A DNA stretch of 64,000 bases, taken from contig JACRMT010000012.1 in the NCBI GenBank assembly GCA_016214855.1, forward strand, positions 186,001-250,000, given 5' to 3'. The notes under the pieces are model-generated. The model did not search any database and had not been told where the DNA came from. It saw only the letters and a list, made by a program, of their open reading frames with translations. Within the stretch, counting starts at the first letter, position 1. Each line of letters starts with the position of its first letter. This document shows positions 3,791-28,536 of this stretch, piece by piece. The translations under genes and the position numbers were made by a program. Source of the DNA: Nitrospirota bacterium. GTDB lineage: Bacteria > Nitrospirota > Thermodesulfovibrionia > Thermodesulfovibrionales > UBA6898.

Positions 3791-5794
3791 CTAAGGATAC
3801 ATCTGCACATAGGGAACCTTCTTGAATTCCCATGTGTTGGCCTCGCTGTTGTACTTTGAGTTCGTAAAGCACTTCCAGTTTACGTCGTCGATCTTGTTGA
3901 AGTCGCCTCTATAGTAGTAGCCAGGATACCTGGACTCTTCCCTGAAGAGGATATGCCTTGCGTGTGCCTCTACCGACAGGATTCTGTGGTAGTTTTCGAA
4001 GCACCTGAGAAGTTCATGGAGGTCTTTTGCCGCCATCTTGGCTGCGTCCTCTTTCAGCATCTCGAGCTTTGCAAGACCTGCTTCAAGCATCGTCCTTGAG
4101 GTCATATACCAGGTTGCTACGCCGCCAAAATACTCGTCAGCAATCTTCTGAAGTCTCAGCTGCAGTGATTTTGGTCCGATGTAGTTCGGATTGATCGTAG
4201 GATCTGTGGTGTATGTCTTGTACTTCTCATACATCTCAAACGGCAGATACAGTTCAGCAGCAATCTCGTCGAGGCTCAGCTTCGGAGAAGGCTTGTAGTC
4301 AGCATGGTCCATTATATACTGAAGTGCTGACTTGGCTGCTATCCTGCCCTCTGCATGAGAACCGGAGGAGAACTTGTGGCCTGATGCGCCGACAACGTCG
4401 CCAGCCATGAAGAGGCCGGGAACGGTGGACATCCTGTTGTAACCCCAGCTGTAGTGCTCAGGGGTGCCCGGCAGATCGCCAGGGCCGCTTACCCAGAAGC
4501 CTGCGCAGCCTGCATGCGAACCAAGGAGATAAGGCTCGGTAGGCATGATCTCTGAAGGGGTCTTGTCAGGCTCGGTGTTGGTAGCTGCCCAGATGGACGC
4601 CTGACCGATAGCCATATCAAGGAAGTCTTCCCAAGCTTCTGCCTCGAGGTGCTTCATCTTCTTGGCGCCTTCTTTTTCACCAAGCTTCTCTTTAAATGCC
4701 GCACCCAGCTCAGCCATGGCCGTATGGGTGTTCATCAGGATGGGGCCCTTGCCGTCCTTCATGGCTCTCATCATCAGATGATTTCTGATCGCGGTGCCCA
4801 TACCCTTTGCGTAGTCTCCGTATCTTGCTACTGCATCATCAAAATATTCCTTGTTTGTGCAATAGTCTTCACCAAAGCTGTCTGTAGCCTTTGCCTTGAA
4901 GAAGAGGAACCATGCGCCTACAGGACCATAACCGTCCTTGAATCTTGCAGGCACGAACCTGTTTTCCATGAGTGAGAGCTCAGCACCTGCCTGCATACCG
5001 AATGCATAGCCTGAGCCTGCGCTGAATACGGGGTACCATGTTCTTCCCATACCCTCGCCGACAGACCTCGGCCTGAAGCAGTTAACAGCTCCAGCGGTCG
5101 CACAGATCATTGCCTTCGCCTTGAAGGAGTAGATCTTGTTCTCTCTGGTGCTGAAGCCGATGGCAGCAGCAACGTTCTTGCCGTTGGTATCCATAACAGC
5201 CTTAACGATGAATACTCTTTCAAAATGGTTCTGGTCCATGCCGGTCTTTTCGCGGTTGGTCGCAAGGGCCTTCTTGGCAGCCTCTGCCACGATTACCTTG
5301 TAAGACTCACCGTTGATCATGATCTGCCACTTGCCGGACCTGACCGGTGTTCCGCCATCCTTAAGGCTGGCCTTGCCGGCATCCCTTGCCTGGAAGCCGT
5401 CGAGCGAGAAACCGTCATCGCCTTTCTTCCAGATAGGGAGTCCCCACTCTTCAAAGAGCTGAACAGAATTGTCGACGTGTCTGCCAAGATCGAATACAAG
5501 ATCTTCCCTGATGATGCCCATGAGGTCGTTTCTGACGTATTTGACATAGTCAGCGACCTGGTTTTCGCCCACGTATGTGTTGATAGCCGACAGACCCATA
5601 GCGACTGCGCCGCTTCTGTCTGTTGCTGCCTTATCGACCATGACCACCTTCAAGCCTTTTTCATTTGCCCAGCGGGCGCCTTCAAAAGCTGCACCGCATC
5701 CTGCCATACCGCCGCCCATGATCAGGAGATCGCACTCGACCTCGGTGACTGCAGGCTTCTGACAGTATGAAAATGTACACGTTTCTTTTTCCAT
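3791..5794 (-). CDS. aprA: Adenylylsulfate (APS) reductase, alpha subunit
   Basis: 667 aa, normal for AprA. It holds the FAD at which APS is reduced to sulfite and AMP in the cytoplasm. The N-terminal dinucleotide motif LLIMGGGMAGCGAAFEG is near residues 23–40; the fumarate-reductase-like core includes SGSHAEGR close to the middle. The C-terminal part ends in KKVPYVQMYP, the AprB-contacting tail region. aprB lies 13 bp upstream, and the pair forms the AprAB heterodimer. The intrinsic terminator follows directly. The ATG start has an AGGAGG-type site. Confidence 0.96.
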   Translation of the reverse strand: MEKETCTFSYCQKPAVTEVECDLLIMGGGMAGCGAAFEGARWANEKGLKVVMVDKAATDRSGAVAMGLSAINTYVGENQVADYVKYVRNDLMGIIREDLVFDLGRHVDNSVQLFEEWGLPIWKKGDDGFSLDGFQARDAGKASLKDGGTPVRSGKWQIMINGESYKVIVAEAAKKALATNREKTGMDQNHFERVFIVKAVMDTNGKNVAAAIGFSTRENKIYSFKAKAMICATAGAVNCFRPRSVGEGMGRTWYPVFSAGSGYAFGMQAGAELSLMENRFVPARFKDGYGPVGAWFLFFKAKATDSFGEDYCTNKEYFDDAVARYGDYAKGMGTAIRNHLMMRAMKDGKGPILMNTHTAMAELGAAFKEKLGEKEGAKKMKHLEAEAWEDFLDMAIGQASIWAATNTEPDKTPSEIMPTEPYLLGSHAGCAGFWVSGPGDLPGTPEHYSWGYNRMSTVPGLFMAGDVVGASGHKFSSGSHAEGRIAAKSALQYIMDHADYKPSPKLSLDEIAAELYLPFEMYEKYKTYTTDPTINPNYIGPKSLQLRLQKIADEYFGGVATWYMTSRTMLEAGLAKLEMLKEDAAKMAAKDLHELLRCFENYHRILSVEAHARHILFREESRYPGYYYRGDFNKIDDVNWKCFTNSKYNSEANTWEFKKVPYVQMYP

Positions 5795-5807
5795 TTATAT
5801 AGTCCTC

Positions 5808-6227
5808 CTATTCTGTTCTTGCAGGCCCATTGAAGAACCCGGGCTTGTTGAGATTCGCAAAATCCGGTGCCGGCTTGCCTGCATACGGATCGACTGAACC
5901 TTCTGCGGTTGTTCTGATCGGGAATTTAAACCTCTTGAGTATTCCGTTTCTGAACTTGATCGTCCACATGATGGAGTCTGTGCCTCTCATCGGGACATTG
6001 CTGGAACCGAGGGGAACAAAATCTGAATAACCCCTGGTCTCGATCGCCTGCTGCGGGCAGATCTTTACACAGTTAAAACACTCCCAGCACTGCTCCGGCT
6101 CCTGGTTGTACGCCTTCATCAGTGTCCTGTCAAGGGCCATCAGGTCATGAGGGCAGATATACTGGCAGGCGGTCCTGTCCTGCGCCTTGCAACCGTCACA
6201 CTTCTCAGTAATAACAAAACTTGGCAT
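5808..6227 (-). CDS. aprB: Adenylylsulfate (APS) reductase, beta subunit
   Basis: 139 aa ferredoxin-like subunit that feeds electrons to the FAD of AprA. Two [4Fe-4S] motifs are visible: CDGCKAQDRTACQYICP near residue 10, with the long spacing typical of AprB, and CWECFNCVKICP near residue 47. A C-terminal tail wraps AprA in known structures. Start ATG at 6227 with AGGAGG. Order aprB–aprA, as in sulfate reducers. Confidence 0.96.
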   Translation of the reverse strand: MPSFVITEKCDGCKAQDRTACQYICPHDLMALDRTLMKAYNQEPEQCWECFNCVKICPQQAIETRGYSDFVPLGSSNVPMRGTDSIMWTIKFRNGILKRFKFPIRTTAEGSVDPYAGKPAPDFANLNKPGFFNGPARTE

Positions 6228-17209: not shown

Positions 17210-20200
17210 TTATCTCTGGGCTGCTCCGATATATACGCTTTTGCCTTCGCCGTAGTAGCTCTCGTACACATGTTCAAAGAGCGTCGCGCATTTCGCCTGA
17301 TATAAATCTTTCGAATAGGCCCGAGGCAGACCATCATCAAGCACATCCTCGATCTGTATGCGCACCTGTGCGCGGGTGGCTGAGCGGGTTCTCCAGTCCA
17401 GCACAAGTAAGGCCTTCAGTCTCTCCAGCAACATCCTCGCGACTTTCTTGACCTCCTCGCGCTCTTCAGTTGCCAGCTCCGGCCCCGGCCTTGTAAGTAT
17501 GTCGAAGATGGTCAGCTCTTCATCAGTCAGGTGCTCGCGTACATGGCGCGTCTGTTCTTCGCTGAGAATCTGTGACATTGCGAGCAGTTCACGGAAGATC
17601 TCCTCGATGTTTCGACTGCCATTGTTGTAACTCTCAATGAGTTCCTGAAACTTCGTCAGATAGTCTGTTCTGGTGCGGTTCAGTCTTACCATCCGTTCAA
17701 GCTGGGCCCGAACTGCAGACTTCAGTCTTTCCACATCAGTATTAGTCGGGGCTGTCCGTTCAAAACGTTTCCGGAGGGCCTCAAAGTCGATAAGGGAAAG
17801 ATTAACCGCACCAATATAGGGCGCTGATTGTTCGCTAATGCGGAATGGATCAGATGCTATCGATTCATCAAGAAGCACCTTAATACCCTGCATAACCGCT
17901 GAAATGTCCGGCGGCTCAGTAGTACCGCGGACAACCTCGGCAATTGCACGCAAGCATGCGCATCGTGATGAAAATTCAAAAGCAACAGGATCGGGCTTTA
18001 CTGCACGATACAATCCATTCACCAGCCCTTCCTTTGCAAGAAACTCCCTGCGAAGATACTCCGGAGCCATGAAACGGTCTGCTGCTTGAGCAATGGCTCC
18101 TGCCTGCTCGAAATTGACAGCAGGTATTGTTTCGATGTTTGTAAGATTTACACCATGATCTGCGCAGAAGTCTGTTGCCTCAGCCAGTGCAGTGCGGAGC
18201 TCTGCAACCAACTCTTTCTTGTCCCGCACCGGCATTGCGCCGCCCTGACCTTTTCCATAGATCGCCAGCGCCCTTTCGAGGGAAGCAAACACATTGGCAT
18301 AGTCAACGATCATACCGCTCTTCTTTTCAGGAAAGACCCTGTTTGCGCGCGCAATCGCCTGCATCAGGGAATGGTTGCGCATGGGCTTGTCGAGGTAGAT
18401 GGTAGAACAGCTCGGCGCATCAAAGCCGGTCAGCCACATGGCGCAGACAAATACCAGACTCAAGGGGTCAGCCGGGTCTTTAAACTTTTCGTCAAGCGGC
18501 TCGTCATTCATGCGCTTCCGGTGCGACACGATATCAAGGCCGAGATTTTTCATCTGCTCGATCTCATTCTGTCCCGGAGAGACGACTACCGCCATATCTG
18601 CAGTTGTCAGCACCTTCAGCCGGTCCTCCAACTCCCGGCGTCGCTCATCCGGCAGGCCTGCAGCAGCAAGCTCCTTCTCGATCCGCGCTCGATCTTCCTG
18701 CCAATATTTTCTGACCTTGTCATACATGCGCAATGCCGTGGCTTTATCAATAGAAACGACCATGGCCTTGCCCTGAAAACCCCTGCCTAAAAAATGCTGC
18801 ACTATGTCCTTTGCAATCACCTCAAGACGCTCGTCGCGGGTAATAAGGTGATACTGCCTGCCGAGTTCCCGCTCCAGCCTCTTTTCAGCATCTTCGCTCA
18901 GTTCCGCAGCTTCGACCAGTTCGTAGATATCATCGTTAAGGTTCGGGTTATCCAGATGCAGTTCCGGTGTCCGGTTCTCATAGAAGAGCGGAACCGTGGC
19001 ACCGTCATCAACAGACTGCTGAAAGTCATAGATAGAGACATAATCGCCGAATACCTCGCGCGTCCGCTCTTCCCCTGCGATAAGCGGCGTGCCGGTAAAG
19101 GCAAGGAAAAGCGCATTCGGCAGGGCGGTCCGCATATTGAGCGCCAGAGTGTCGTACTGGCTCCGGTGCGCCTCGTCAGTCAGCACGATCACATCGCGCC
19201 TGTCGCAGAGGACTTCAGCTGTCTGGAACTTATGGATAAGCGTGAAGACGTACCGGTGGTTTTCGGCCAATAACTGCCTGAGATGCGCGCCGCTTTCTGC
19301 ATGGCAGACCTTGCTTTCTGTCTCGCTCACAGCTCCGCAGGCCTTGAAGGTCCTTGCGATCTGATCATCAAGCTCTGTGCGGTCGGTGATAACAACAAAG
19401 GTCCAGTTCCCCGGCACCTTGCGCATGATCTTCTGCGCGAAAAAGACCATCGAAAAACTCTTGCCAGCACCCTGCGTCTGCCAGAACACACCGCCCCGGC
19501 CATGACCCTCCTGCCTTGCATTGAGCGCTGCGGTTATGGCGTTGTTCACGCCAAGCACCTGATGGTTCTGTGCCAGCACCTTTACCAGCCCTGCCTTATG
19601 TTCGGAAAAGAGTGTGAAGTTCTCAACAATATCTATCAGGCGTGCAGGTTCACAGGTGCCGCGAATCATAACGTCAAGCGATATCCGGCGCGGCTCGTCT
19701 TCCCGTTCGATCCGTTTCCACTCGAAGAACCGGTTCCAGTCAGCGGTGAGCGATCCGACGCGGCTGTCAGTTCCGTTCGAGGCGATCATAAAGGCGTTAT
19801 ACCAGAAGAGCGCGGGGATACCATTCTGCAGGTGCTTATAACTGGTTAGGTTTTCGTCAAAGGCCTGTTTGGCCGGAACGCTCGGCTTCTTCAGCTCGAT
19901 AACAACAATAGGCAGACCGTTCAAATACCCGATCAGATCAGGCCTACAGGTATAGAGCGGGCCGGTAATGGTCATCTGACTCACAAGCAGAAAGTCGTTC
20001 TCTTTCGGGTTGTCCCAGTTCACGACCTGCACGCGCTCGATCTTCTGTCCTCCGCTTTGATTCCCTCGCCCGCTGGGAGAGGGTTGGGGTGAGGGTCCGT
20101 GATCAGGAACCGAAACCTTGATCCCGTCCTTGAGCAGCTCCCATACTTCACGGCTCGCTGCAGCAGGACTCATGGCTGAGCGGTCACGGGATATCTCGTC

Positions 20201-20506
20201 AATTGCCGCTAAAATCGCCTCAGGCTGGAGTGTTGGGTTCAGCTTTTCGAGTGTCGACCGCAGGCGGGGAAGAAGGATTACTTCGCTTTTTGTTTCACGT
20301 CCCAACGCTACGCGTCCCTCACCCGCTCCCTCTCCCAGAGGTAGAGGGCCATCACTTTTCACTCCCTCGCCCTTGAGGGGAGAGGGCTGGGGTGAGGGTG
20401 TAATGAAAACCTCTTCCATCGCCGACACTGTCTGCCAGCCAAGCTCAGCAAAGAGCTGGATCGCAGGCTGCTCGACAAGGTGGTTTTCAGTGTAGGAATG
20501 CGGCAT
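17210..20506 (-). CDS. hsdR: Type I restriction enzyme, R subunit (HsdR)
   Basis: 1098 aa. It is the motor and nuclease of the type I complex, which translocates DNA and cleaves far from unmethylated sites. The N-terminal nuclease (PDLIGYLNGLPIVVIELKK, a PD…ExK core) is followed by an SF2 motor with QGAGKS (Walker A) and LTDEAHRS (Walker B). The C-terminal helical domain would bind HsdM. Two foreign low-complexity stretches interrupt the N-terminal part (near residues 35–70 and 138–150), encoded by palindromic repeats. The start agrees with the family's N-terminal HLVEQPAIQLFAELGW. It lies 203 bp downstream of the DUF488 gene. Confidence 0.93.
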   Translation of the reverse strand: MPHSYTENHLVEQPAIQLFAELGWQTVSAMEEVFITPSPQPSPLKGEGVKSDGPLPLGEGAGEGRVALGRETKSEVILLPRLRSTLEKLNPTLQPEAILAAIDEISRDRSAMSPAAASREVWELLKDGIKVSVPDHGPSPQPSPSGRGNQSGGQKIERVQVVNWDNPKENDFLLVSQMTITGPLYTCRPDLIGYLNGLPIVVIELKKPSVPAKQAFDENLTSYKHLQNGIPALFWYNAFMIASNGTDSRVGSLTADWNRFFEWKRIEREDEPRRISLDVMIRGTCEPARLIDIVENFTLFSEHKAGLVKVLAQNHQVLGVNNAITAALNARQEGHGRGGVFWQTQGAGKSFSMVFFAQKIMRKVPGNWTFVVITDRTELDDQIARTFKACGAVSETESKVCHAESGAHLRQLLAENHRYVFTLIHKFQTAEVLCDRRDVIVLTDEAHRSQYDTLALNMRTALPNALFLAFTGTPLIAGEERTREVFGDYVSIYDFQQSVDDGATVPLFYENRTPELHLDNPNLNDDIYELVEAAELSEDAEKRLERELGRQYHLITRDERLEVIAKDIVQHFLGRGFQGKAMVVSIDKATALRMYDKVRKYWQEDRARIEKELAAAGLPDERRRELEDRLKVLTTADMAVVVSPGQNEIEQMKNLGLDIVSHRKRMNDEPLDEKFKDPADPLSLVFVCAMWLTGFDAPSCSTIYLDKPMRNHSLMQAIARANRVFPEKKSGMIVDYANVFASLERALAIYGKGQGGAMPVRDKKELVAELRTALAEATDFCADHGVNLTNIETIPAVNFEQAGAIAQAADRFMAPEYLRREFLAKEGLVNGLYRAVKPDPVAFEFSSRCACLRAIAEVVRGTTEPPDISAVMQGIKVLLDESIASDPFRISEQSAPYIGAVNLSLIDFEALRKRFERTAPTNTDVERLKSAVRAQLERMVRLNRTRTDYLTKFQELIESYNNGSRNIEEIFRELLAMSQILSEEQTRHVREHLTDEELTIFDILTRPGPELATEEREEVKKVARMLLERLKALLVLDWRTRSATRAQVRIQIEDVLDDGLPRAYSKDLYQAKCATLFEHVYESYYGEGKSVYIGAAQR
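20063..20095. repeat. Palindromic GAGGG/CCCTC repeat unit inside hsdR
   Basis: CCCTCGCCC … GAGAGGG … GGGTGAGGG word pattern. On the hsdR strand it is read in frame as a GPSPQPSPSGRG-like peptide between conserved segments (VSVPDHG and GGQKIERV). It matches the other units in hsdR and hsdM. Confidence 0.75.
20316..20399. repeat. Pair of inverted palindromic repeat units inside hsdR
   Basis: Two copies of the same element in opposite orientation (20316–20348 and 20364–20399), separated by 15 bp. They are read in frame as a PSPQPSPLKGEG … PLPLGEGAGEGR stretch near the HsdR N-terminus. Together they could form a large hairpin. Confidence 0.75.
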
Positions 20507-20709: not shown

Positions 20710-21603
20710 TCATAGGTGCTGCGCAAGACTGGAACTGTCCAGCCGCTCTATGGCATTAGAAACCCGCTGCCGGTGGCACATTGAGGGTTTCTCTTCATAG
20801 CAGGTGAGCGCCACGCGGTGCCCCTCATGCTCGATCCAGTTCCTGATCTTTTGAAGCGCTGCAGCCTGTTGCGGCAGGCAGGCCTGTTCATATCGTTCAA
20901 ACAGTGCCTCGTAGTCAGCCTGAGTTTCGAGCTTGCCCCGTTCGGAAGATGCTATGCCAAGCTCCGGCAGATGCTCATAACGTATACCCACGCCCTCGCA
21001 TGCCTTGCTCAGCGAACCCTTTGAGAAGCCATATTTCCGACTAAGCGGATTTCTGCGTACGTCACACAGCAAAGTAACGGATGCCTTGAGCAACTGATTT
21101 AAATATCTTTCCAGTGTCTTACCCTCATATCCTATTGTCAGGAGGCTGGGGTCAAGGTGCGCTGGGCGTGCAGCATCAACCTGCTCACGCACAGCAGGAT
21201 CGGTCAAGACTCTATCAACAATTTCGCTGCGTGTTGCATAGTAGGGATAGCGGCGATAGACCTCTGCGATAAGTTCATCGCCGTGCAGTGCAGAGTGCTG
21301 AGTGCAGAACTCTGTTACTGCTTTCTGATCAACAGGTTTATGTCGAGCTTCTGCCTGACCTGCCTCTGTAAGTTTCCAGTTTTTGTCGTCGTTCACAAGC
21401 AGACCAGCTTCGATCATCTTGCGCTTGTCTGCATAGGAAGTGAACGAAAAAGCGCCGAAGTGGTATGGCACAAACTCATAGCTGGGTGTTTCTTCATGCT
21501 CCATGGTGTAAAGAAAAAGCAGTTTCTGGAAGTCTGTACCGCTCACCTTCTGCCCAAGGGTATCAAGCAGCGTTAATAATAGTCTCCGACGGTTAAATAG
21601 CAT
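20710..21603 (-). CDS. DUF488 protein with an extra N-terminal domain
   Basis: 297 aa. The C-terminal ~145 residues are DUF488: LTIGYEGKTLERYLNQLL near 152, then CDVRRNPLSRKYGFSK, ending with a CYEEKPSMCHR motif near 270. The N-terminal ~110 residues (GQKVSGTDFQKLLFLY … FVPYHFGAFSF) resemble the Panacea/SocA-like helical domain; this second assignment is inference. DUF488 is of unknown biochemical function. It sits between the hsdR fragment (2 bp away) and full hsdR, inside the hsd operon. Confidence 0.65.
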   Translation of the reverse strand: MLFNRRRLLLTLLDTLGQKVSGTDFQKLLFLYTMEHEETPSYEFVPYHFGAFSFTSYADKRKMIEAGLLVNDDKNWKLTEAGQAEARHKPVDQKAVTEFCTQHSALHGDELIAEVYRRYPYYATRSEIVDRVLTDPAVREQVDAARPAHLDPSLLTIGYEGKTLERYLNQLLKASVTLLCDVRRNPLSRKYGFSKGSLSKACEGVGIRYEHLPELGIASSERGKLETQADYEALFERYEQACLPQQAAALQKIRNWIEHEGHRVALTCYEEKPSMCHRQRVSNAIERLDSSSLAQHL

Positions 21604-21605
21604 AA

Positions 21606-21746
21606 TTAATGATACCTTACGCTTGACGTCATAACAAATAAATTCAGCCCAGAGGCAGTAATCTGATCGGGCTGCCAGCCAAGGTTGGCGAAAAGGCCTA
21701 TGGTGGGCTGCTCGACAAGCTGGTCTTCAGTGTAGGCGTGTGTCAT
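21606..21746 (-). pseudogene. Vestigial hsdR 5' end
   Basis: A 46-codon frame whose first half (THAYTEDQLVEQPTIGLFA, then NLGWQ) is a clear copy of the HsdR N-terminus; the full hsdR at 20506 reads PHSYTENHLVEQPAIQLFAELGWQ-like. After LGWQ the frame soon runs into unrelated sequence and a stop. It lies between DUF2290 and DUF488. It is best explained as the original hsdR start, cut off when DUF488 and a different hsdR were brought in. Confidence 0.8.
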
Positions 21747-21749
21747 GGG

Positions 21750-22421
21750 TCAGCTCGTCGTACCGAGCGAAAGATGAGGGATTTTTCTTTCATTCGCAGT
21801 GATGGTGTTGGCAAATGAGAGTATAGGCGCAGGGATCTCATCTGAATACTTACGAAATGCAGTGTTATAGAAATTCCGTAGAATGAAACCTCCGAAAGTT
21901 AACGGAGTAACTGGTGAGCACAAGGGAATACGACAATTCTTATATTGGCCTAGTGTAAGGTGCGAACGGGGATGATGGATTTCCACAAACTTTGCATCAT
22001 CATTACTAAAATCGAAGCGGATTGGAAACGGCACAATGTTCCTTGCGATAATGTCAGCGTAGACCTCGTCCAGAAGATAGACTTCGGGATCATTTTGGAA
22101 ATGCTCCAAGTCTGGCGAAGGGAAATAGGAAAGCACATGCTCGCGTATGTCGCCATTACAAAACCTATACTGAAGCGTCACAAGTGCGCCATCAAGCATC
22201 TTTAAATTGAAGCATCGTGCTTGCTCCAGTTCGGCATAAATATCACGGTAGGCGATGTTCTTCAGCGCTGTCGTCATGCGATCCGATCCATTGACCGTTA
22301 TCTCAAAATCCCGATCGATTTGTCCATGAGTAGAGGGGAAGTTCTGATCATTCGAAAGACTCAGGCCTACCATCGTCTCTGTCAATTGCGCTAACTGTTG
22401 CAGCGTTTCTCTGGAGTTCAT
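21750..22421 (-). CDS. DUF2290 protein, partner of the NERD-like helicase
   Basis: 223 aa. Recognised by the C-terminal stretch with HPRSHLTLGQYKNCRIPL, followed by PVTPLTFGGFILRNFY, typical of DUF2290. Function unknown. The His-rich H-x-R-S-H region could be a nuclease or metal site, but that is speculation. Its start overlaps the helicase stop by 4 bp, so the two are translationally coupled and probably work together. It ends 3 bp before the hsdR fragment. Confidence 0.6.
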   Translation of the reverse strand: MNSRETLQQLAQLTETMVGLSLSNDQNFPSTHGQIDRDFEITVNGSDRMTTALKNIAYRDIYAELEQARCFNLKMLDGALVTLQYRFCNGDIREHVLSYFPSPDLEHFQNDPEVYLLDEVYADIIARNIVPFPIRFDFSNDDAKFVEIHHPRSHLTLGQYKNCRIPLCSPVTPLTFGGFILRNFYNTAFRKYSDEIPAPILSFANTITANERKIPHLSLGTTS

Positions 22422-24562
22422 CTCGATCGCCTTTTAGGTTTTTTATCAAGGAGCTTTTGCAACTTACTAATGACGTCGGCCGGATAATCTTCAATAAACG
22501 TATCGCCTGATTCCAACGACTCAATGATATCAAGCATGTTACTTTGTTTCTTCGCAAATCTTTCCTTTTCCTCCTTCGACATATCACGATTCACGATTGT
22601 CATCTTCTGTCGCTCCGGCTCTGTCGGGTATTTGAATCGTAACTCGAAACCGGCCTGTCGAATCATCATGAATTCAGCCTGCAACGCCTCCATGGCTTGC
22701 CCATAGCCAAGAACACGCACCCATGCTTTGCTGCGGGTGATAGCGGTAAAAAGCCGATTGCGAACACGAGCGCGATCTCTCGGCAGCAACGCAGTGAAAC
22801 AATCCTGCGCGTTAATAACATACACCATTGCGGCCTCATTTCCCTTTGCGCGGAAGATGCCAGTGAAAGTTACTGTGCCAGGCTCTGAAAAGATATCTAC
22901 AGATGTGGTGACCCCTGCCAAGTTGGAATTGATCCCCTTCTGAAGGAGGAGCTTTCTTGGTTCGGCCACAGCTTCTCTCGTAGTTAGCGGATTGGGATTG
23001 ATGACAACAATATCATCCGGCAGGAGTTCATCTGTCCTGAGGTTTTGCTCAATAGCCTTTGCGAGCCATGCTGTTTGTTCGGCTTCTGACTTGAAAGTTT
23101 CAAACGCAATTAAATCTTCAATCGGCGAGTGACTTGCCAAAAAAGCCGGGCTCGCCTTTGATGTGCGAACCATTGTGACCATCTGGCCGTCCTCAAGCTC
23201 TCCATCTTTGACAGTGTAGCCGATATCCAGCCACAGGCTTTTGTTCTCAAATATCTGCACGAGTCCCTCGCTGCGATATACTCCAAATCCGAGTGCATGT
23301 GCAGTTGACAGCACTGGACCGGAATTTCGGTAGCAGACGTCCAAAACAATGTCCTGTTTAGGTTTGCCCGGCTCTTCAGGTTGCAAAACGACACGAGGAG
23401 TTCCATCCGGGTTCTTGCCAAAAATATCTTCGACTGGTGGCAGTGATCTTTTCCCAAGGTTCTGCAATTCGTCATATGCGAATACAAGTCGCTTTGGATT
23501 CTTCAAATACTCGTAGCACAGGAGAAGGAAATTCGATGCGAAATCTTGCGCCTCGTCTACAAGGATAACGTCATACTTCGGAACGAAGCCTTTCACGGAA
23601 GAGAGGGCGAGATCGCAGGCCCCCTCAAACTGCCGGTCAGGGCCAAATTGCCGGGCGGAACCGAAATCAAGGTATTCCACACCGTGATCACGGCAAAACT
23701 CATAGTAAATTCCTGTTCGGTCTTTGCCCCCGGGTGCGCCCCAAGCGTTCAGTATTCTTACTTTCTCCCAATCCGGCTCTTCGTTTGTCTGTTCAAAAAC
23801 AAACATAGTTATGAGCTGTTCAAACTGCTTTTTAAGCGAGCGTGTGTTAAACGTGACTGCAATCAGCCAATCGGGATGACTTGCATGCAAATAAGCAACT
23901 TTTAGTGCCAGTACGATTGTCTTGCCCGAACCGGCCAAACCTCGGATCCGCTGTACCCCATCAGAAGTTTCCACGACGGCTGCACTTTGTTGGGTATCGA
24001 GATTAGCGATTGAGTCCTCGAGCGACTTGATTATCGCTCCCTTGGAAGTAGTGCTACGCAGTTCTCTTCTCTTTCTTCCGCGGCGAAGAGTGGAAATGGC
24101 CTGAATGACAGCAACCAATGACTCGAACACGCTTGGATCGCTATCCTCAAGCGAATCCAAAGTCCCCAACAGTGATTCTCCGTTGCAGATCGGGTGTTCT
24201 TCGTCAGCCTGATTAAGTTGCGCCACCGCTGGTGCAAACGTGATTGTATGAATTTTCACCAAGAGTTGCCGTTTCCGAATCAGAGACTGATGCTGAAGCA
24301 ATTTAGCCTGCATCTTATTGAAGGCTTCATCTTGTGCCGCCCCATATTCTTCAAGAAGTCTGCCCTCGATAAGATTGAATAACACCAAGCCTTTTGATGC
24401 AGATACAAAAAGGGCATCAATAGGAAAGGATCCCTCAGAAGTTCCGATAATAGGGTAGCCGATATAGAGCGTCCCGTTGAGCTCTCGCTGAGCGGCCAGC
24501 AGCGTAGCCAGTTGCTTACTCGACACTGGTTTGTCCGTGCTACCCCAAACAGTGTTAATCAT
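22418..24562 (-). CDS. Superfamily 1 (UvrD-like) helicase with NERD-like N-terminal domain
   Basis: 714 aa. The N-terminal region (residues ~35–110, GYPIIGTSEGSFPIDALFVS and on) resembles a NERD nuclease-related domain. A Q-motif (NLDTQQSAA, ~188) precedes Walker A GLAGSGKT (208–215) and Walker B VILVDEAQDF (~335). The late motif TAITRSKAWVRVLG is the SF1 motif VI arginine region. It overlaps hsdS by 4 bp and DUF2290 by 4 bp. It is not part of canonical type I restriction, so it is an embedded accessory defence gene by context. Confidence 0.78.
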   Translation of the reverse strand: MINTVWGSTDKPVSSKQLATLLAAQRELNGTLYIGYPIIGTSEGSFPIDALFVSASKGLVLFNLIEGRLLEEYGAAQDEAFNKMQAKLLQHQSLIRKRQLLVKIHTITFAPAVAQLNQADEEHPICNGESLLGTLDSLEDSDPSVFESLVAVIQAISTLRRGRKRRELRSTTSKGAIIKSLEDSIANLDTQQSAAVVETSDGVQRIRGLAGSGKTIVLALKVAYLHASHPDWLIAVTFNTRSLKKQFEQLITMFVFEQTNEEPDWEKVRILNAWGAPGGKDRTGIYYEFCRDHGVEYLDFGSARQFGPDRQFEGACDLALSSVKGFVPKYDVILVDEAQDFASNFLLLCYEYLKNPKRLVFAYDELQNLGKRSLPPVEDIFGKNPDGTPRVVLQPEEPGKPKQDIVLDVCYRNSGPVLSTAHALGFGVYRSEGLVQIFENKSLWLDIGYTVKDGELEDGQMVTMVRTSKASPAFLASHSPIEDLIAFETFKSEAEQTAWLAKAIEQNLRTDELLPDDIVVINPNPLTTREAVAEPRKLLLQKGINSNLAGVTTSVDIFSEPGTVTFTGIFRAKGNEAAMVYVINAQDCFTALLPRDRARVRNRLFTAITRSKAWVRVLGYGQAMEALQAEFMMIRQAGFELRFKYPTEPERQKMTIVNRDMSKEEKERFAKKQSNMLDIIESLESGDTFIEDYPADVISKLQKLLDKKPKRRSR

Positions 24563-25725
24563 ATATCAGCACCTCCGAGATTATTGAAAATATTTACCTC
24601 CCCCGACAGCAACCGCGGCAGCAACAGATCGCGGGTGCTGCGGAGATTAGCAGTCTGCGTTGAAAGCACAGCTATTTCTTCATGCAATGGCGTTAGGTGG
24701 CTCTCTGCAGAACAAATAACTGACTCAGTCGGGCAGATTAATTGGATGTTTTGCATGTCATCGCGCGTAACCGCAGCAAATATTGCACCGTTTCCTATCG
24801 TGTCTTCTTCTTGAAATCTGTCACATAACTGCTCCCACAGGAAAGTCTGATGGCCGTCCTTGTGGCGAATTGCCGAAAGGCCACGACCAAGGATCATTTT
24901 CTTTTCAGCTATATTCATACGCCCGACAGGAGCACGAACACTGAAAAGTATATCGCCCGGTTCGGCAATGCGTCCCTCGACTGAGCAATAGAGTCGATCA
25001 GTCGGGAACCTGTCGCCAAAGTTAGTTACGCCCTGATGGAACGGCAAACCCTCGCCGATTTTATTGTAGTACTCTGATTTTGGTGACTGTCCCATTGTAA
25101 GGTGACAAACATCATTGAGCTGCTTGACCTCCCACCCTTTCGGAATCTTGCCAAGAGGCGAATCGACGAGAGGGATTTTTTCATGGTCGGGGAAGCGAAA
25201 GAGGACGAACCACTCGCGGTAGAGGGCGCGGGCCATTTCCTCCAGAATCTTTATCCGCCGCAGGTTGTTTTCGATCAGCTCGTCATAGGCAGACAGGATA
25301 CCCGCGATGCGCCGCTGCACGGGGAGAGGAGGAACTTTAATCTCTGTATCGTTGAGAATCGTCAGTGTCAAAAACTTAGTTGCCGCCCCCGTCGAGACAC
25401 TACGAAACTCTGAAAGCTTAGGGCGGAGCGTATAGTAGAGAAATCTGGTTGTCAGTTGATTGGGGTCGCGAGGCGTCACCACATACGTTCGCTGATAAGC
25501 ATCGAACTTCCCGTGGAAATACTTCAGCGGGTAAATTCCGTTAGCGTTGTTCCCGGCCAACAGCACGCACTCAGTATCGAAGCTGAAAGTATTTGTCCGC
25601 AGAGTCTCCTGGGAGCAGGTGAAGAAAGGGTAGTCCCCGTTGGGCACAGCGGCATTTGAGTCGAGCTTGCCTGTTTTGAAAGCAACAACCTCTCCGAGCT
25701 TAGCAGTTCGCCACTCGCTCACCAT
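24559..25725 (-). CDS. hsdS: Type I restriction-modification specificity subunit (HsdS)
   Basis: 388 aa from the ATG at 25725, which has a GGAGG 7 nt upstream; an in-frame ATG at 25758 (overlapping rhuM) would add a Gly-rich leader and is less likely. Two target-recognition domains are visible, each starting with a WRTAKLGEVV- or WEVKQLNDVC-like segment and ended by a conserved helix (RRIAGILSAYDELIENNLRRI; and the C-terminal STRDLLLPRLLSGEV). HsdS sets the DNA sequence recognised by the complex. Confidence 0.9.
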   Translation of the reverse strand: MVSEWRTAKLGEVVAFKTGKLDSNAAVPNGDYPFFTCSQETLRTNTFSFDTECVLLAGNNANGIYPLKYFHGKFDAYQRTYVVTPRDPNQLTTRFLYYTLRPKLSEFRSVSTGAATKFLTLTILNDTEIKVPPLPVQRRIAGILSAYDELIENNLRRIKILEEMARALYREWFVLFRFPDHEKIPLVDSPLGKIPKGWEVKQLNDVCHLTMGQSPKSEYYNKIGEGLPFHQGVTNFGDRFPTDRLYCSVEGRIAEPGDILFSVRAPVGRMNIAEKKMILGRGLSAIRHKDGHQTFLWEQLCDRFQEEDTIGNGAIFAAVTRDDMQNIQLICPTESVICSAESHLTPLHEEIAVLSTQTANLRSTRDLLLPRLLSGEVNIFNNLGGADI

Positions 25726-25754
25726 CCCCCCGCCTCCAGCATCTCCGCCAGGCT

Positions 25755-26795
25755 TCATTTCTTCCCACCCTTCTTCTTCGCCTTGGGCTGTGTCGGCAGA
25801 TGCATGATCGCCTTCTCAAACTCCCCGCCGTCCGCGTCGGCCTGTTGGATGCGCTGGAGGTTGAACTTGTCATATTCCGACTCGGCCAGTTCCTTCGCCA
25901 TTTCGTGCGAAATCTTTCCGGCATGAGTAAGAATATCGCGATCGTTAATGGTCAGAAAACCGTGGAGCTTGGCGAGCCAGTCGCGCATATGCATGGGCAC
26001 GCGGCGCATTGCCTGGCCTTCGGCAAAGACCAGATATTGCTCGACAAGATTGTTCAATGCCGCCAGTTCCGGCTCATTCAGATAATTCTTGGCAATGGCA
26101 ACATCCTCCTTGCGTACCTTGACGCCGCGCCAAGTGGTCAGCCCCATGTTGGGTTTGGCGCTATCGGCACGGGTGTGGATAATCTCCGCCGCAGTCTGGC
26201 CGGTGATGGCCCAGTGCATCTTGTTCTGTACGGTCTGGAAGAACTCGATGCTCTCCTGCTGGGTGGGGTCGTAGTCAATGCTGGTTGCGTAGATATCGGT
26301 GATCTTCTGGTAAAAGCGCCTCTCGGAGGTGCGGATATCCTGTATCCGCCGAAGCAGTTCGTCAAAATAGTCGAAAGGACGATCAGGGTTCTTGAGGCGT
26401 TCGTCATCGAGGACGAAGCCTTTGACGATAAACTCGCGCAGCTGCTGTGTGGCCCAGATGCGAAAGCGGGTGGCAACAGCGCTTTTGACCCGGTAGCCGA
26501 CGGAGATGATGGCGTCGAGGTTGTAATGTTTTGTGGCGTAGTTTTTACCGTCAACGGCAGTTATTAAGAATTCCTTAATAACTGAATCCGCCTGTAATTC
26601 TCCTTCGGCAAGCACGTTGCGCAGGTGCATGCTGATATTGGGTATGGTCGTCTGAAAAAGTTTTGCTATATGCGCCTGGGTTAGCCAGACAGTTTCGTTT
26701 TCCAGGCGGACTTCGAGCTTTGTCCGCCCATCCTCGGCCACGTACACAAGGAATTGGCCTTTGGCAGGTAGCTTGCTCTGATCTGAATCACTCAT
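25755..26795 (-). CDS. RhuM family protein
   Basis: 346 aa. The N-terminal half matches RhuM: VWLTQAHIAKLFQTTIPNIS, followed by ADSVIKEFLITAVDGKNY and ISVGYRVKSAVATRFRIWAT. The family was named from a Salmonella pathogenicity island gene; molecular function is not established. It is often found between hsdM and hsdS, as here. 22 bp after hsdM, overlapping the longer hsdS reading. Confidence 0.82.
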   Translation of the reverse strand: MSDSDQSKLPAKGQFLVYVAEDGRTKLEVRLENETVWLTQAHIAKLFQTTIPNISMHLRNVLAEGELQADSVIKEFLITAVDGKNYATKHYNLDAIISVGYRVKSAVATRFRIWATQQLREFIVKGFVLDDERLKNPDRPFDYFDELLRRIQDIRTSERRFYQKITDIYATSIDYDPTQQESIEFFQTVQNKMHWAITGQTAAEIIHTRADSAKPNMGLTTWRGVKVRKEDVAIAKNYLNEPELAALNNLVEQYLVFAEGQAMRRVPMHMRDWLAKLHGFLTINDRDILTHAGKISHEMAKELAESEYDKFNLQRIQQADADGGEFEKAIMHLPTQPKAKKKGGKK

Positions 26796-26817: not shown

Positions 26818-28536
26818 TCATGACTCTAAAATCTCCGCCACATTCCTTGCAATGGTAGCTTCCAGTTCCCGCGCCTGGGCGTTCAGAACTTCCAACTCTT
26901 CATTCAGCGTCTCCAGCTTCTCCTTGAAATCCTCATCACTCACTACCTCGCCCGGAGCAACGCCGACGTAACGGCCGGGATTCAATGACCAGCCCTGCGC
27001 TTCGATCTCTTTCAGCGTAGCGACCTTGCAAAGGCCGGGGATATCGCGATACTGGAGATACCCCTCACCCCCGCCCTCTCCCCCAAGGGGCGAGGGGGTT
27101 ACTTTCTTGGCGGCCCCCTTTTTCAAAGTGGGCGAACCAAACACTTCTTCAAGTTTTGCTTTTGCCTCATCTCCACCGAGGGTGAAGTCAGGCTCTTCTC
27201 CGCGATAGAGTCTTACAATGTTGGCAAGGAAACCGATCTGAACATCTGCCCAGTCCCGATGTGCGCGGTCTATCTGCCGGTAGATATGTCTGGCATCTAT
27301 GAACAGCACGGTATCGCAACCCCTCACCCCAGCCCTCTCCCCCAAAGGGCGAGGGGGCAAATTCTTCTTGCCGCGGTCGAAGAACCAAAGCGTGCAGGGG
27401 AGTGTGACGGTATAAAACAGATTCAGCCCGACAGCGACCATTACATCAACCGCGTTGTCATCAAGAAGCTTGCGTCTTAAATCCTGCTCAGACGAGCGGG
27501 CGTCTGAGGCTGAGTTGGCCATCACAAAACCTGCACGGCCCTTTTCATTCAGCGCAGAATAGAAGAGCTGAATCCAGAGATAGTTTGCATTATCAGTCCG
27601 GGGCAGACCAAAGGGATACCTGCGGCCTTTGCCGACCTCTGCCTCAAGCCTCTCCTTATCCACTGCGTTGACATTGAACGGAGGATTGGCAAGGAGAAAG
27701 TCGAACCGGCCAGTGGACTGGTGCAGGTCGTCATAATAGGTGATCGCCTCGCGGATGTCGCCTTCAAGCCCGTGCATGGCAAGGTTCATGCGGCAGAGCG
27801 CAATGGTCGCAGCAACCTTTTCCTGGCCGTGTATGGATAATTCTGAGGAAGGGTTCTTCTTATGCTCGGCAACAAAGCGCGCACTCTGCACGAACATGCC
27901 GCCTGAGCCGCAGGCAGGATCGAGTATGCGGCCATGATAGGGCTCGATGATCTCGACAAGAAGCCGGACAATGCTTGCCGGTGTGTAGAACTCGCCGCCC
28001 TTCTGTCCCTCTGTCCTGGCGAACTCGCCTAAGAAATATTCATATATTCTGCCAAAGGCGTCGTAGTCAATAGTTGCCGGGATTTCCGAGACTTTTTTGA
28101 GCAGTTCCTTGAGCAGTGTTCCTGAAAATATCTCATACGTCTTCGGCAGGACGCCTGCAAGCTGGGGGTTGTGCTTCTCGATGTCCCGCATAGCCTCGTT
28201 GATCGTCTTGCCGATATTGCCGCCTTCAGGAAGAGACAGGAGGGAATCGAACCGGGCGTTCGGCGTGAGATAGATCACACCTTCTGCATGATAGGCTGCA
28301 GGCTCGTCAATGCGTGAGGTGGACCGCCGCGATGATTGGCCTGCCTTTTCGAGTTTGCTGCGCAGGACATTGAAACGGACTTCGGCAAAACGCAGGAAGA
28401 TCAGGCCTAAAACAGGGGCTGAGTATTGAGCAGAGGTAAGGCCGGAGTTGGCCCGAAACTGGTCCGCCGCATCCCAGAGCTTTTTTTCGAGTGTGTCTGT
28501 GGCAGTATCCTTTTCAGACGGCGCGACCCACTGCAT
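26818..28536 (-). CDS. hsdM: Type I DNA methyltransferase (HsdM)
   Basis: 572 aa. N6-adenine methyltransferase of the type I complex. The helical N-terminal domain starts [13 protein letters not shown]; the SAM motif DPACGSGG is at ~206–213 and the catalytic NPPF at ~284–287. Two repeat-encoded inserts disturb the C-terminal part: [13 protein letters not shown] near 395 and [12 protein letters not shown] near 490. The catalytic core is intact. It is the first gene of the operon, with a 169-bp upstream gap. Confidence 0.93.
27062..27096. repeat. Palindromic repeat unit inside hsdM (copy 1)
   Basis: CCCTCACCC … CCCTCTCCC … GGGCGAGGG pattern, read in frame within hsdM as [12 protein letters not shown]. 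Same family as the units in hsdR. Confidence 0.75.
27321..27355. repeat. Palindromic repeat unit inside hsdM (copy 2)
   Basis: Same CCCTCACCC … GGGCGAGGG element, read in frame as [13 protein letters not shown]. It nearly matches copy 1 in sequence and orientation. Confidence 0.75.

Follow-up and report, generated by a model that had tools for sequence, protein, structure and literature searches.

The 64,000-nt stretch of a Nitrospirota genome analysed here (the window; contig JACRMT010000012.1) carries on its minus strand a Type I restriction–modification operon with the order hsdM, RhuM, hsdS, UvrD-like helicase, DUF2290, a short frame (hereafter the stub) that repeats the beginning of hsdR, DUF488, a gene remnant and hsdR (Table 1). 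PADLOC recognizes the Type I subunits, PDC-S05 (the RhuM gene), Helicase and DUF2290, and PDC-M19A (the DUF488 gene). M19A is whole and its partner M19B is cut to an 18-codon start; the PDC-M19 pair of the window is therefore broken. Repeats of GGACA type between the M19B remnant and hsdR may be what is left of an old insertion sequence. A helicase and DUF2290 pair is known to inhibit phage T7 (PMC9122126). As in that system, a UvrD-like helicase adjoins DUF2290 in the window, and PADLOC assigns the two genes with its Helicase and DUF2290 models; the system described there occupies a P4-like satellite hotspot, whereas the putative anti-phage pair in the window lies inside a Type I operon. In nearly all of the relatives fetched, UvrD is accompanied by DUF2290, mostly with no recognizable hsd operon of this family alongside.

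Table 1. Features of the Type I operon in the window (positions within the window; nt, nucleotide)
Feature	Position	Strand	Remark
hsdM	26818..28536	-	resident relative to G215; 89% nt identity to G215 (88.9%)
RhuM family gene (PDC-S05) between hsdM and hsdS	25755..26795	-	not found at the G215 locus
hsdS	24559..25758	-	~40% identity to G215 HsdS, aligned part only
UvrD-like helicase	22418..24562	-	DUF2290 partner in nearly all relatives fetched
DUF2290 protein of the Helicase and DUF2290 anti-phage pair	21750..22421	-	absent from G215
hsdR-homologous part of the stub	21672..21746	-	codons 1–25 of an hsdR' allele unlike the resident hsdR; 72% amino acid identity, profile E 6.5e-11
Non-HsdR rest of the stub frame	21606..21671	-	junction zone; from ~21621, homologous again to the DUF488 upstream flank in G215
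DUF488 protein (PADLOC PDC-M19A)	20710..21603	-	resident relative to G215; 86% nt identity to G215 (85.9%)
5' remnant of partner gene PDC-M19B, MPKERILITVKTYPTLSQ, 18 codons	20649..20702	-	whole in G215
Complete hsdR	17210..20506	-	resident relative to G215; 86.7% nt identity to G215

The stub frame (21606-21746, minus strand) is open from ATG to TAA and encodes 46 aa, starting 3 nt past the DUF2290 stop and ending 2 nt short of the DUF488 ATG. It resembles a gene of the operon, yet it codes for just the first 25 residues of HsdR. Codons 1–25, MTHAYTEDQLVEQPTIGLFANLGWQ, align with the N-terminus of the complete HsdR at 72% amino acid identity, the DNA homology stops at 21672 after CTTGGCTGGCAG, and the 21 codons beyond this point are no part of HsdR. 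The stub and the HsdR start align with a local score of 99, against a best of 45 in 1000 shuffles. When the genome is searched with the stub, the sole other match is the start of the complete hsdR (E 5e-7), and an HsdR N-terminal profile run against the whole genome recovers the stub (E 6.5e-11). Pfam finds no domain in the 46 aa and no match to any family, so that no other family competes with HsdR for the fragment. At this length and with no Pfam domain, it lacks the nuclease and SWI2/SNF2 motor domains of a working HsdR and, judged by its sequence, is a relic of hsdR and not an HsdR protein. The initial annotation had described a frame that repeats the HsdR N-terminus and then breaks off, located immediately ahead of DUF488 and with a complete hsdR further downstream; both the homology and the positions bear this out.

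The closest comparison is with G215, which alone among eight genomes of the genus has the operon and a close hsdM; there the genes run hsdM, hsdS, HEC-01A/B, DUF488, M19B, hsdR. Nucleotide identity between the window and G215 is 85–87% for flanking genes, 88.9% for hsdM, 85.9% for DUF488 and 86.7% for hsdR. RhuM, UvrD and DUF2290 have no counterpart at the G215 locus, where the HEC-01 pair fills the UvrD–DUF2290 slot, and DUF2290 was not found anywhere in the G215 genome. From ~21621 onward the window carries the DUF488 upstream flank that is seen in G215. The stub is identical to the window's own hsdR at 57/75 nt and to the G215 hsdR start at 54/75 nt, against 67/75 between the two complete genes; the stub is therefore a different allele, and the hsdR starts closest to it are those of loci L122 and L163, not that of the window's own gene. 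Residues ~37–65 of the window's HsdR are an in-frame insert, PSPQPSPLKGEGVKSDGPLPLGEGAGEG, missing from G215 HsdR, and similar palindrome-derived repeats are present in hsdR starts or stubs of loci L269 and L294. Just before hsdS, TGGCGGAGATGCTGGAGGCGGGGGGATG at 25723-25749 (minus strand) resembles the 3' end of G215 hsdM (score 21, shuffle maximum 19.5), as if the arrival of RhuM had left a putative hsdM-tail relic too.

These identities bear on which side of the stub is new. The initial annotation proposed that hsdR once followed DUF2290 directly, with DUF488 and the present hsdR as later arrivals. An hsdR 5' relic, an implied operon with hsdR 3 nt after DUF2290 and a recombination event are all supported, but the order of arrival is not, as G215 has both genes at background identity (85.9 and 86.7%, against 85–87%) and has none of DUF2290, UvrD and RhuM. 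Since DUF488 and hsdR share the G215 identity of neighbouring genes, they are as old in the lineage as those neighbours, and they look resident. The later arrival is more likely the UvrD–DUF2290 side, of which the stub would be the truncated right edge, because of these identities and because hsdS directly precedes DUF488 in G347 and G268, as does an HsdS-tail relic in G147; this direction is drawn from one close comparison (G215) plus distant relatives. For this window, then, the history first proposed is probably to be reversed. The same anatomy would result had DUF488–M19B and a new hsdR been inserted into the old hsdR of a former DUF2290–hsdR' operon, with G215 later swapping UvrD–DUF2290–stub for HEC-01. 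That order is unlikely, though it deserves more weight than the other alternatives considered below: it requires the insertion to precede the split from G215 and G215 to have lost the stub in a further step, the upstream neighbour of DUF488 in other relatives is hsdS, and both genes stand at background identity between the congeners.

Our preferred reading, to which we give a probability of about 0.68, is that the 46-codon frame is a dead junction scar, left when a segment from another Type I operon was joined upstream of the resident DUF488. The incoming segment would have been hsdS–UvrD–DUF2290–hsdR', perhaps with RhuM, and the resident operon hsdM–hsdS–...–DUF488–M19B–hsdR would have received it at the same chromosomal site. 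Ordinary homology in or near hsdM, an anchor that we infer, would probably have served to join one side; hsdM is 85–95% identical to that of G215 along its whole length, with no crossover point visible. The other side would have been joined without real homology, the incoming hsdR' passing after codon 25 straight into the DNA just upstream of DUF488. At this illegitimate joint, hsdR' codon 25 meets the DUF488 flank with little or no homology. The motif GCAGCCC is common to the joint and the G215 flank, but by a hand estimate it is within chance and is not claimed, and no significant microhomology can be demonstrated at the window junction. A homologous joint at one end with an illegitimate joint at the other, the pattern of homology-facilitated illegitimate recombination (PMC3240628), would give the anatomy of the window; that process is inferred for the present case, with the homologous anchor not located. 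The complete resident hsdR downstream would keep the system whole, leaving the truncated copy free to persist. No donor operon UvrD–DUF2290–hsdR' of this hsdR subfamily was found in the genomes, plasmids and viral contigs searched.

The same kind of structure recurs elsewhere. When each hsdR start was compared with up to 8 kb upstream, stubs were found ahead of hsdR in 16 of ~184 hsdR loci, a total that includes a few redundant loci and a first set not randomly chosen. In that first set, 9/72 loci besides the window are positive (L012, L125, L163, L189, L199, L230, L231, L239 and L240, with two stubs each in L199, L239 and L240). An independent sample from the class of L012 gave 4/40 (L265, L269 with two, L289 and L294) and another, from the family of Paraglaciecola arctica, 2/59 (L334, which is P. 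arctica itself, and L352); 12 plasmid loci from isolates had none. The weakest positives are L265 (18 aa) and L289 (~14 aa). Three weak matches, L280 (on the opposite strand), L297 and L303, were left out of the count as apparently spurious, and an Escherichia coli match (H154) whose hsdR start is split reflects insertion of an IS3 element and does not qualify as a stub. Draft or metagenome-derived assemblies account for many of the positive loci; stubs are also present on contigs of >100 kb (the window, L125, L239 and L334), and one stub joint is common to L199 and L231, which are two genomes of one genus.

Stubs are ~14 to 80 codons long and lie on the hsdR strand ahead of accessory genes, which, named mostly by eye from sequence, are of antitoxin–PIN, RelE-type pair, HipA, RhuM, Schlafen-like, DUF262, PDDEXK and DUF3800 types. 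For most, the match starts with the hsdR initiation codon; in L231 and L240 it sets in at a later position, and the stub of L230 is located at a contig end. With HsdR cut into 100-residue segments, matches came from the N-terminal part only, 12 on the hsdR strand and 0 on the opposite one. Fragments of HsdM were absent from 60 loci, one of which has a second whole hsdM, and a scan for HsdS fragments returned C-terminal tails only, in 2 loci. The confinement of matches to the hsdR start and the hsdR strand, together with the stubs on contigs of >100 kb, argues against chance or artefact. In one further locus, L116 (genome G143), hsdS and hsdR appear as one open frame of 1200 residues, a possible HsdS–HsdR fusion.

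The joints of these stubs are informative. In L199, L230, L231 and L269, an HsdS C-terminus follows the stub without a break, and the joined DNA is therefore from another hsd operon. At the joint common to L199 and L231, the stretch CCGTGAC is retained from hsdR and codes for RD, residues that are likewise present at this point in HsdS tails. Such a fusion is what a junction between hsdR' of one operon and hsdS of a different one should produce; for L199 and L269, an HsdS tail behind the stub would fit just as well with the downstream module having arrived second, as in the reverse order considered above. Most stubs are closer to another species' hsdR than to the neighbouring one. In L012 (Verrucomicrobia), UvrD–DUF2290 is followed by a 215-nt copy of the locus's own hsdR start, then by RhuM and a complete hsdR. 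This locus independently supports the DUF2290–hsdR junction, as a separate event in a different hsdR family.

With gaps counted, the L012 stub matches the hsdR start of its own locus at 90% identity, as would suit insertion with long target duplication, whereby an accessory gene enters the hsdR start and duplicates the hsdR 5' end. Such insertion is known for restriction–modification genes (Nobusato 2000, as cited in PMC3031569 and PMC1643837), and, as represented in those citations, it may resemble the present loci in having a direct target repeat flanking the inserted DNA. In contrast, the repeat here is the hsdR start only, is usually of another allele and is sometimes fused to a foreign HsdS tail. 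For the window this explanation is very improbable: its stub is an allele unlike the adjacent hsdR, and HsdS tails fused to stubs elsewhere lie outside any hsdR target duplication and are not expected from mere target duplication.

A role for the stub itself, for instance as a translational coupler or leader peptide that takes ribosomes from DUF2290 into DUF488, would account for the tight spacing on both sides and the open frame. We regard this as the least credible of the alternatives, as most loci have no stub, the lengths vary widely, the stubs of L239 and L240 contain stops, and the codons at which the window stub differs from hsdR (6 synonymous and 7 non-synonymous changes) show no obvious constraint. 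The stops in L239 and L240 indicate that stubs decay. These two loci, which are from congeners, have the block from antitoxin to hsdR in common, with a different hsdR piece just upstream in each. Across the loci, the stubs are best read, from their sequences, as scars without function that illegitimate recombination from one hsd operon to another has left, probably accompanied by a homologous joint at the opposite end, as in PMC3240628. Events of this type, running one way or the other, would recur in Type I operons and leave an hsdR 5' stub when accessory modules are combined beside hsdR. In L199 the order is stub, toxin–antitoxin, stub fused to an HsdS tail, toxin–antitoxin, hsdR (oriented positions 4464-6196), as if modules had been added one after another. 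It is conceivable, but doubtful, that the hsdR 5' end is a general docking point, with modules moving as 'accessory genes plus hsdR start', integrating and excising via the short repeat and leaving behind stubs, stacked like a ladder, from which the sequence of gains could be read, as in L199.

That the hsdS–hsdR interval is a hotspot for defence genes is already known. Defence genes are embedded there in the RptR/DarTG2 island of enteropathogenic E. coli (EPEC), where the interval has been termed a potential recombination hotspot (PMC12255303), and in Campylobacter rlo/mlo genes occupy this interval of Type I operons (Miller 2005, as cited in PMC5183652). The interval and the type of accessory cargo are those of the window; unlike the window, the available parts of these accounts give no hsdR 5' stubs and no joining mechanism. 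No description of recurrent hsdR 5' stubs, the scars reported here, was found in the openly licensed literature, which is weak evidence of novelty.

Recurrent, strand-specific stubs of the hsdR start provide a readable fossil record of how extra defence genes reach the hsdS–hsdR interval. Stubs place the gains in relative order and expose the joints, and they point to exchange of modules among hsd operons rather than to delivery by a dedicated element. A warning for annotation follows as well, since such frames should be labelled neither as genes nor as hsdR. Similar seams are found in unrelated bacteria and therefore record how Type I restriction operons gather extra defence genes.
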